Below are positions 1,402 through 4,514 of a stretch of 64,000 nt of DNA, one piece after another. A program made the position numbers and the translations under genes. The notes under the pieces are model-generated. The model searched no databases. It was not told the origin of the DNA and saw only the letters and a program-made list of their open reading frames with translations. The DNA is from Roseinatronobacter domitianus (GTDB taxonomy: Bacteria; Pseudomonadota; Alphaproteobacteria; Rhodobacterales; Rhodobacteraceae), in contig NZ_JALZWP010000011.1 in assembly GCF_023336755.1 (NCBI RefSeq), forward strand, positions 1-64,000. Direction: 5' to 3'. The number at the start of each line of letters is the position of its first letter. The first letter of the stretch is position 1.

Positions 1402-2436
1402 TCAGGGCTTGAAGCTGCGGACCGTGTCGATCATCAGCGCCACATTCTCGGGGTCGGCATCGGGGGTTATTCCGTGGCCAAGGTTGAAAATATGCGGACC
1501 GTTGCGCAGGGCCGCGACGACCTTGCGGGTTTCATCCACCAGCTCTTGCCCCCCTGTCACCATGTGGCGTGACGCCAGATTGCCCTGCACACAGCCGTCT
1601 ATTTGCACATTGGCTGCGGCCCATTCCGGCGTGACCGAATCGTCAATCGCTACGCAATCCGCACCACTGGCCTTATGAAAGCCTATGTAATGCTCTCCGC
1701 CTTCACGCGGGAAGGCGATGACGGGAATGCCGGGATGGCGGGCTTTCAGCGCATCAATAATCCGCTTTGTGGGGGCAAGCGCGTATTTCAGGAACGCGTC
1801 GCCTTTCAGCGAGCCCGCCCAAGAATCAAAAATCTTGACCACTTCTGCCCCGGCCTTGATCTGCATCGACAGATATTCAATCGTGGCATCGGTGATCCGG
1901 TCGATCAGCGCATCAAACGCTTCCGGCGCACCCTCGCGCATGGCATGGGCCGGGCCTTGATCTTTGGTGCCACGGCCTGCGATCATATAGGTGGCGACCG
2001 TCCAAGGCGCACCGGCGAAACCGATCAGCGTGGTTTCGCTCGGCAATTCGCGCGACAGGATGCGCACGGTTTCATAAATCGGGTTGAGCGTGTCGTGGAT
2101 AGCATCGGTTGGCTTCAGCGCATCAACGCCCGCTTGGTCACTGATAGTGGACAGGCGCGGCCCCTCGCCCGTCACGAACCACAAATCGGCCCCAAGGGCT
2201 TGCGGCACCAGCAGGATATCGGCGAACAGGATTGCGGCATCAAACCCATAACGGCGGATCGGTTGCAGCGTGACCTCTGCCGCCAGTTCAGGATTATAGC
2301 ACAACGACAGGAAATCCCCGGCCTGCGCACGGGTTGCGCGATATTCCGGCAGGTAGCGACCAGCCTGGCGCATCATCCAGATGGGCGGTGTGGGTAGGGT
2401 TTCACCGGCAAGGGCGCGCAGAATGGTCTTTGTCAT
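1402..2436 (-). CDS. hemE: Uroporphyrinogen decarboxylase
   Basis: HemE decarboxylates the four acetate side chains of uroporphyrinogen III to give coproporphyrinogen III, in the cytoplasm, for haem and bacteriochlorophyll. The 344-residue product has the family's usual length and the signature segment [15 protein letters not shown] near residues 19-33, plus [13 protein letters not shown]. The start chosen is the ATG at 2436, with AAGGAGAA just upstream. The frame is open far into hemC on the other strand, but that extension has no homology value. It is divergent from hemC, with a PpsR/CrtJ-type site between them. Confidence 0.96.
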
Positions 2437-2483: not shown

Positions 2484-2501
2484 TGTCAAGTCTGCATGAC
2501 A
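2484..2501. promoter_or_regulatory. PpsR/CrtJ-type operator between hemE and hemC
   Basis: TGTC-N10-GACA at 2484-2501 matches the PpsR/CrtJ consensus TGT-N12-ACA. It lies 48 bases from the hemE start and 44 bases from the hemC start. PpsR/CrtJ represses photosynthesis and some tetrapyrrole genes in Rhodobacter. Whether this organism carries ppsR cannot be seen here. Confidence 0.6.
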
Positions 2502-2544
2502 CTCTGTGCTTGAAAGGTGCCATGTGCGGCGCTATGCAATTGCC

Positions 2545-3501
2545 ATGACACAGACATTCCCGACCCCCGACCAGCCCCTGAAAATCGGCACGCGCGGTTC
2601 CCCGCTGGCGCTGGCACAGGCCCATGAAACGCGAAGCCGCCTGATGGCGGCGCATGGCCTGCCAGAGGCGGCGTTCGAAATCATGGTCATCAAGACCACG
2701 GGCGATGACCGCACGCTGATCGACGCGGACCGCCCGCTGAAAGAAATCGGGAATAAAGGCCTGTTCACCAAGGAAATCGAAGAGGCGATGGTCGAGGGAC
2801 GAATCGACATTGCGGTGCATTCGATGAAGGACATGCCCACGGAACAGCCAGACGTGCTGACCTTGGGCTGTTACCTGCCGCGCGAAGATACACGCGATGC
2901 GTTCATTTCGCCCAGCACACAGGGCATTGCCGATCTGCCCAGCGGGGCGGTGGTCGGGTCTTCGTCTTTGCGCAGGCGCGCGCAACTGCTGAACAAACGC
3001 CCCGACCTGAAGGTTGTGGAATTTCGCGGCAATGTGCAGACCCGGTTGAAAAAGCTGCATGACGGCGTGGCAGATTGCACCTTCCTTGCCATGGCCGGGT
3101 TGAACCGCCTTGGCATGAGCGATCTGGCCAATGGCGGAATTGAGCCCGAGGACATGCTGCCCGCGATTGCCCAAGGTGCAATTGGCATTGAATGGCGCAT
3201 TGCGGATACGGCCACGGCAGAATTGCTCGTGCCCTTGCACGATACCCCCACAGGACAGCGGCTGGATGCAGAGCGCGCGTTTCTGGCCGGGCTGGACGGA
3301 TCGTGCGAAACCCCCATTGCGGGGCTTGCGCTGATCGAAGGCGACGAGATCTGGCTGCGCGGCGAAATCCTGCGGCCCGACGGCTCGCAAAAACTGGCAA
3401 CCGAAGGGCGGGCTTTACTGGCGGACGGGGCCGCCTTGGGCCGCGAGTTGGCGGCAGAGCTACGCGGGCGCGCGCCTGCCGGGTTCTTTGATTGGCTTTA
3501 A
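2545..3501 (+). CDS. hemC: Porphobilinogen deaminase (hydroxymethylbilane synthase)
   Basis: HemC polymerises four porphobilinogens into hydroxymethylbilane, a cytoplasmic step of tetrapyrrole synthesis. From the ATG at 2545 the protein is 318 residues, the normal length. Visible signatures are [12 protein letters not shown] near the N-terminus, the basic stretch [20 protein letters not shown], and Cys254 in [10 protein letters not shown], which should bind the dipyrromethane cofactor. An upstream GTG or ATG would add about 13 residues and has no better ribosome site. It is divergent from hemE and followed by a small gap before the convergent Abi-C gene. Confidence 0.96.
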
Positions 3502-3611: not shown

Positions 3612-4514
3612 CTATTGATCGTCGATCCGTTGCTCCTCAATTCTCGCTTGCCATGTTTCAATCAGAAAAAGGGCCATGGACCCAGCAAGGTTAACCGTCA
3701 AAGCGGCATGACGCGGCTTGAATGGCACTCGTGAGCGCCCCCCAGCATGTGCATCACCGCCTTTGTTGCGCAAGGAACCAATACTTTGAACGACTCTTTG
3801 GCAGTTTCCCAGAATCGTTTTGAACACTTCTTCTTGGTGCTGGGATGGTGCGAGCTTTAAAACTTTTGCAGCTTCAGAATAAAGTTTCGGCACATTCCAT
3901 TTTGCCTCCCACTTTGCACCGCTGTCCTCAATGATGTGTTTGCAGACCTCTTCGAGGAGGGTGCTTGCGGCGGTTACGGCGCCGTCAGGGTCGGTTGTTC
4001 GCCGTTCCAAAGCCTTCGCCCAAAAAGCTTGCACAGCGGGAGCATCATAGACATCAAGACCGTCTGTGATTGTGGCGTCTGCCGCACCGCCACCTGACTC
4101 GAGGAAGGTCAATAGCGGTATGAAGGCGTCAGTAACGTGGCCTCGACGGATGGCCCACGAACCTGAACCACTTGCGACGCTCGATAATGCTGACCGCACA
4201 GAAGTGGCATCATTTGAGAAACACACGAAGTTCGGCAGAAGCCGCTTACTTGCCGGGTCTTCCATTAGCCTTAGCCTGGCTAGTTTGTACGCGGCCTCCG
4301 ACCCCCCTTGGGTCGTTAGGCCAATGATATTGTTTTTAAAAAATAGCGCACATTCAAAAAGGTCGTCAGGAATCTCAGGTTCAGCGAAATCGCCATATGT
4401 CATTAGCTGTCCTCGAACAAAGGCTTCCCGAATGTGGTCCAAGTGGCGATACAAATGAAAGGTCTCGAACGTTTGAAGCATCCAGACACCCGACATTCGG
4501 GGAAACCGCAGCAT
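3612..4514 (-). CDS. Abi-C (abortive infection C-terminal) domain protein
   Basis: A 300-residue protein whose C-terminal third matches the Abi_C domain: LLEEVCKHIIEDSGAKW, then PKLYSEAAKVLKLAPSQHQ, VFKTILGNCQRVVQSIGSLR and NKGGDAHAGG. Homologues are scattered, often near mobile DNA, and some are linked to phage abortive infection, but most are untested. The N-terminal 150 residues show no motif I recognise. An internal ATG 11 codons in is an alternative start. Its base composition is visibly lower in GC than its neighbours, and it stands alone between hemC and murC, which suggests acquisition by transfer. A defence role is inference from the domain only. Confidence 0.7.
   Translation of the reverse strand: MLRFPRMSGVWMLQTFETFHLYRHLDHIREAFVRGQLMTYGDFAEPEIPDDLFECALFFKNNIIGLTTQGGSEAAYKLARLRLMEDPASKRLLPNFVCFSNDATSVRSALSSVASGSGSWAIRRGHVTDAFIPLLTFLESGGGAADATITDGLDVYDAPAVQAFWAKALERRTTDPDGAVTAASTLLEEVCKHIIEDSGAKWEAKWNVPKLYSEAAKVLKLAPSQHQEEVFKTILGNCQRVVQSIGSLRNKGGDAHAGGRSRVPFKPRHAALTVNLAGSMALFLIETWQARIEEQRIDDQ

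Follow-up and report, generated by a model that had tools for sequence, protein, structure and literature searches.

Between the divergent hemE and hemC genes of Roseinatronobacter domitianus lies a palindrome of the form TGTC-N10-GACA, and the question that it raises is whether this word is a working operator of PpsR, the aerobic repressor of photosystem genes, or a by-product of promoter sequence. The comparisons described below point to a functional site as the most likely answer, and we consider it probable that the palindrome is a working PpsR operator and a relocated version of a known target; from these comparisons we infer both binding and repression. The window is the whole 64-kb stretch of DNA that was analysed, and its features around the site are as follows.

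1402–2436, minus strand: hemE, uroporphyrinogen decarboxylase (TIGR01464, E = 3.9e-123; PF01208)
2437–2544, no strand: hemE–hemC spacer of 108 bp between divergent genes (from the gene calls)
2484–2501, no strand: candidate PpsR-type operator TGTC-N10-GACA, TGTCAAGTCTGCATGACA (from the sequence and a matrix score of 17.3 bits)
2484–2489, minus strand: presumed hemE −35 box, TTGACA, coinciding with the left half of the operator (from conservation)
2505–2522, no strand: second-best spacer match, TGTGCTTGAAAGGTGCCA, probably no site (2.8 bits)
2510–2515, plus strand: presumed hemC −35 box, TTGAAA, 8 bp after the operator (read by eye)
2533–2538, plus strand: presumed hemC −10 box, TATGCA, spaced 17 bp from TTGAAA and with 6 bp left to the ATG (read by eye; weak)
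2545–3501, plus strand: hemC, hydroxymethylbilane synthase (TIGR00212, E = 5.8e-98; PF01379 and PF03900)

A PpsR-type palindrome in the hemE–hemC spacer

The window sequence bears out the original observation of a TGTC-N10-GACA word near the centre of this spacer: the hemE start codon occupies positions 2436–2434 on the minus strand and hemC starts at 2545 on the plus strand, leaving 47 bp between the site and hemE and 43 bp between the site and hemC. The word expected of a PpsR/CrtJ operator is TGT-N12-ACA, preferably as TGTC-N10-GACA; the preferred form is present, with the same half-sites and inner spacing as in the paired operators of photosynthesis operons. A matrix built from 12 ChIP-bound R. 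sphaeroides sites, with the R. sphaeroides hemE site held out, scores the window site at 17.3 bits and the held-out site at 17.8 bits; mononucleotide shuffling of the window gives something above 17.3 bits in 3 of 20 cases.

Significance by count was considered and rejected. The strict form occurs once in the window against 0.67 expected by chance, with at least one occurrence in 51 of 100 shuffles, and the looser TGT-N12-ACA occurs 5 times against 8.6 expected, so that place and conservation, rather than number, are what matter for this site. Across the genome, the matches listed comprise 61 palindromes and 29 occurrences of the reversed word, an excess that is suggestive only.

PpsR/CrtJ sites typically come in two (PMC9144470), and those beside the photosynthesis genes of this genome are mostly paired, whereas the window spacer has one strong site. 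A second PpsR site within it was sought by matrix scan and rejected, the best further match reaching only 2.8 bits. Second-best matches in the family sample described below have median scores of −2.5 bits in ppsR+ and −3.3 bits in ppsR− spacers, and reach at least 8 bits in 7 of 58 and 1 of 79 spacers, respectively. Two spacers of the R. sphaeroides type (L032 and L085) also have one strong match, so a single site does not exclude the window spacer as a target.

PpsR and photosynthesis genes in the genome

The palindrome had been read as a hint of phototrophy, with ppsR and photosynthesis genes as the things to look for; both kinds of gene were found in the genome (3.36 Mb, 55 contigs). The encoded PpsR (TIGR02040, E = 1.9e-128, 428.9 bits against a cut-off of 275.4) carries PAS and Fis-type helix–turn–helix (HTH_8) domains and matches the solved PpsR structure 4hh2 over its PAS part (E = 1.6e-98). 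The protein encoded directly before ppsR has weak B12-binding matches (PF02310 below cut-off, PF02607 just above) and an NCBIfam CarH match below cut-off, and is taken by its place for AerR/PpaA. The genome also encodes two reaction-centre proteins (Photo_RC, PF00124) together with bchC, bchN, bchE, bchG, crtD, crtI, crtA and bchF (PF07284). A bchF–bchN fusion, suspected from a 607-residue frame, was rejected, as bchF ends at a TGA overlapping the bchN start. The matrix scan placed strong PpsR-type sites beside bchC and crtD, before bchE, before bchG, and in the gaps separating bchF from the AerR-like gene and crtI from crtA; the sites beside these bch and crt genes are mostly close pairs.

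Judged by its gene content only, the organism is a phototroph; among named relatives, its HemC comes closest to that of Roseibaca ekhonensis (95%), followed by an unclassified MAG (94%) and Roseibaca sp. Y0-43 (92%). The inferred phototrophy is supported by PpsR, the two reaction-centre proteins, the bch and crt genes with their PpsR-type sites, and the tracking of ppsR by the site across the family. The motif alone would have been insufficient for that conclusion, given the 0.67 chance matches expected, and because half of it can be a plain −35 box it is by itself poor evidence for phototrophy.

Association of the site with ppsR across the family

The family sample comprised 179 genomes, about one per genus, with Photo_RC in 70 and PpsR in 72. 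There were 177 hemC matches in 175 of the 179 genomes, and spacers were taken from 150 of the 177 (149 genomes). Eleven of the 150 places (5 ppsR+ and 6 ppsR−) were dropped for having no divergent hemE in the stretch, leaving 139 spacers from 138 genomes; matrix-score counts omit two more ppsR− spacers by length (81 to 79). A named set held 80 loci, of which L038–L087 served for the ppsR comparison, with 49 genomes searched for ppsR and 48 counted (L076 dropped, L072 left out; L088–L117 lay outside the ppsR search). L040, the same assembly as L009, was dropped from the pairing, box, half-site, matrix and HemE + HemC tree analyses. One row of alignment A1, G032_L011, covered the wrong stretch and was excluded.

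TGT-N12-ACA is present in 41 of 58 ppsR+ hemE–hemC spacers of the family sample against 3 of 81 ppsR− spacers, and TGTC-N10-GACA in 32 of 58 against 2 of 81, whereas 11 altered words or spacings appear in 0 or 1 spacers per group. The named set gives 23/26 against 2/22 for the loose form and 12/26 against 1/22 for the strict form. Fisher's test on the loose form in the family sample returns p = 4.9e-18, for genomes that are not independent. A short tree with little support (7 of 181 inner branches starred) yields on its supported branches only 4 independent pairs, too few to decide; over all branches, our own pairing gives 44 pairs, of which a median of 25 run as expected and 1 runs the opposite way. 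By words, the site mostly accompanies ppsR and is rare in its absence; the contrast is weaker by matrix, with 11 bits reached in 44/58 ppsR+ and 16/79 ppsR− spacers. Seventeen of the 58 ppsR+ spacers have no TGT-N12-ACA, and 6 of these still reach 11 bits. The sequence comparison indicates that photosystem control extends to this tetrapyrrole trunk gene pair in many phototrophic Rhodobacteraceae.

PpsR was found in G135 and G148, for which the Photo_RC search returned no match, and partial loss or another role of PpsR is a possibility. Genome G111 has two hemC copies (L210 and L219), each with a divergent hemE and its own PpsR-type site, and one hemC copy is about 8 kb from the reaction-centre genes. 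The idea that the sites of ppsR− genera are left over from a lost phototrophy was set aside, 3 of 81 being too few to tell a relic from chance.

Position and proposed relocation of the site

Both hemC and hemE are said to have been named as PpsR targets by Moskvin et al. in 2005. In R. sphaeroides (Cereibacter), the same palindrome lies between the equivalent genes, hemE RSP_0680 and hemC RSP_0679. A PpsR site at hemE was found there by ChIP-seq, with a 2.23-fold change of hemE and a weak peak (1.7-fold) in the ChIP table (PMC4344238). A caveat to the original reading is that this R. sphaeroides site is at a different place from that in the window. The 18-mers of L032 (family sample) and L085 (named set) match the R. 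sphaeroides ChIP motif in reverse complement and lie 17 bp before hemC, as does the site of L087, whereas the window site is at 43 bp and shares bases with the presumed hemE −35 box. The R. sphaeroides-type place, about 17 bp before hemC and on its presumed −35 box, holds no exact site in the window.

Among the family sample's ppsR+ spacers, 41 have a site, which stands 14–18 bp before hemC in 31, at 37–51 bp in 5 (two of which are from the genus of the window) and elsewhere in 5. Those of the −17 type begin one base into a TTGTCA box, mostly 35–36 bp before the hemC ATG, that is taken for the hemC −35 box. Where a TTGTCA/TTGTAA box is present, the distal ACA follows in 28/38 ppsR+ against 3/40 ppsR− spacers; the hemC-side half-site comparison in the named set showed no usable contrast (4/11 against 0/3). 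TGAC fills positions 14–17 in 27/51 ppsR+ and 17/68 ppsR− spacers, and the last base at this place is A in 31/51 and 9/68 and G in 14/51 and 48/68, respectively. Many ppsR− genera, L017, L123, L134 and L157 among them, have near-sites of the form TGTC...TGACG, one base off the PpsR palindrome, at the −17 place, which weakens the contrast; these could be remnants of operators or simply promoter sequence.

In the clade of the window (Roseibaca/Roseinatronobacter, 19 rows), 18 of 19 members have TGT-N12-ACA at 43–45 bp before hemC with TGTCAA as its left half, and none of the 19 spacers has it at 14–18 bp. Six of the 19 have the strict form, the inner bases varying. All 16 ppsR+ members carry the site at 43–45 bp; the three rows that gave no PpsR match are L050, L059 and L054. 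L059 has neither PpsR nor Photo_RC nor the site; an assembly gap may explain the lack of ppsR in L054, which does have Photo_RC. L050 (Roseinatronobacter sp. HJB301) is without PpsR and Photo_RC, yet its spacer keeps the strict palindrome TGTCAAGCCCGCAGGACA, perhaps a relic of recently lost phototrophy.

The full HemE + HemC tree has 42 rows, of which 24 group at 100/99 support and comprise the window clade (92/90), the Rhodobaculum group (100/99) and L011 as an open fork. The site is at 37–38 bp in 3 of 4 members of the Rhodobaculum group and at 17 bp in L011. Among the 18 rows outside, all 10 with a site have one at 17 bp except L083 (42 and 47 bp), and L066 has a second at 79 bp. As these outgroup sites are nearly all at 17 bp, −17 seems to be the ancestral place and −43 a derived one. 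The free quick tree is 56 log units worse than a tree holding both shifted groups together, and the trees fit either one relocation or two.

Tentatively, and as a proposal that may well be wrong, the ancestor would have had its PpsR site over the hemC −35 box, and the Roseibaca/Roseinatronobacter clade would have exchanged it for one over the hemE −35 box, with −35 boxes supplying half-sites and lineages toggling control as ppsR comes and goes. Because a −35 box already gives one half-site, very few base changes would suffice to create, shift or remove PpsR control of the heme trunk. It would be a modest example of operator turnover, the contacted promoter changing while regulation seems to persist. 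The part of the literature read on PpsR/CrtJ with heme genes, on Roseobacter and on site turnover contained no report of a relocation of the hemE–hemC site. The changed position and the promoter covered appear to be the new part, the link of PpsR to hemE being already known in R. sphaeroides.

Promoter boxes and proposed mode of control

The left half of the site, TGTCAA, is the reverse complement of TTGACA. A TGTCAA-type box is found 30–95 bp from hemE in 70/83 ppsR+ and 89/103 ppsR− spacers, and being about equally common in both it is probably the hemE −35 box. Mainly the right half of the site therefore argues for PpsR. The presumed hemC −35 place holds TTGTCA/TTGTAA in 8 of 19 window-clade members, TTGAAA in 3 and other words in 8. 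If TATGCA at 2533–2538 were the −10 box, a weak assignment, the hemC message would be leaderless. A promoter scan of 2380–2600 found no promoter, so the boxes rest on reading by eye and on conservation.

PpsR would bind 2484–2501 under oxidising conditions, where it would cover the hemE −35 box with the left half of the operator and stand 8 bp upstream of the presumed hemC −35 box. A block of hemE is the simplest predicted consequence: hemE would be lowered directly and hemC perhaps more weakly, and the supply of tetrapyrrole precursors would be fitted to the demand for bacteriochlorophyll. The single site suggests mild control, in line with the 2.23-fold change and 1.7-fold ChIP enrichment in R. 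sphaeroides. In R. capsulatus, qPCR comparing aerobic with photosynthetic growth showed only a 1.8-fold difference for hemC, and several other hem genes did not react (PMC5643017).

The palindrome could also have arisen by chance, GACA happening to stand at the fitting distance beyond a hemE −35 box (plus-strand TGTCAA), with PpsR inactive here. One half of the word is a frequent promoter box, and both the 0.67 strict matches expected in the window and the 3 of 20 shuffles exceeding 17.3 bits somewhere agree with such an origin. It is nonetheless unlikely, given that 18 of 19 clade members keep TGT-N12-ACA at the same place despite varying inner bases, and given the 41/58 against 3/81 division of spacers by ppsR.

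Granting that PpsR binds, it might act mainly as an anaerobic activator of hemC, or in both ways, which we regard as quite improbable. The site is upstream of the presumed hemC −35 box, the usual place of an activator, LAerR can turn R. capsulatus CrtJ into an activator (PMC9144470), and the B12-binding, AerR-like protein is encoded directly before ppsR; but the operator also covers the presumed hemE −35 box, and R. sphaeroides hemE is listed as PpsR-repressed (PMC4344238). It is very unlikely that another regulator with the same word uses the site, or that it is common to PrrA/RegA with PpsR a bystander, since the word fits a matrix from PpsR ChIP sites and goes with the presence of ppsR. Any regulator that travels with phototrophy is nevertheless confounded with ppsR, and a PrrA ChIP peak at hemC/hemE in R. 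sphaeroides (PMC4263372), in the same spacer, means that other regulators may share it. A working PpsR operator remains the preferred reading.

Neighbouring and other loci

Just downstream of hemC, on the minus strand at 3612–4514, is a gene with an abortive-infection C-terminal domain (PF14355); a tblastn search of the 80 named hemC loci returned no relative of this gene, which suggests a recent insertion. Next to hemE, at 853–1347 on the opposite strand, a fasciclin-domain protein (PF02469) is encoded.

Elsewhere in the genome, two PpsR-type palindromes of 16.2 and 21.3 bits (L243, 4287–4304 and 4424–4441; G000 contig C4, 39287 and 39424) lie between a flavin amine oxidase gene and rpoE–chrR, whose sigma factor and anti-sigma factor govern the response to photooxidative stress. 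The R. sphaeroides PpsR ChIP table (PMC4344238) has no rpoE–chrR site. A site of at least 13 bits is present in the corresponding stretch of 11 of 29 relatives' rpoE–chrR loci, and these sites could link photosystem control to stress control.
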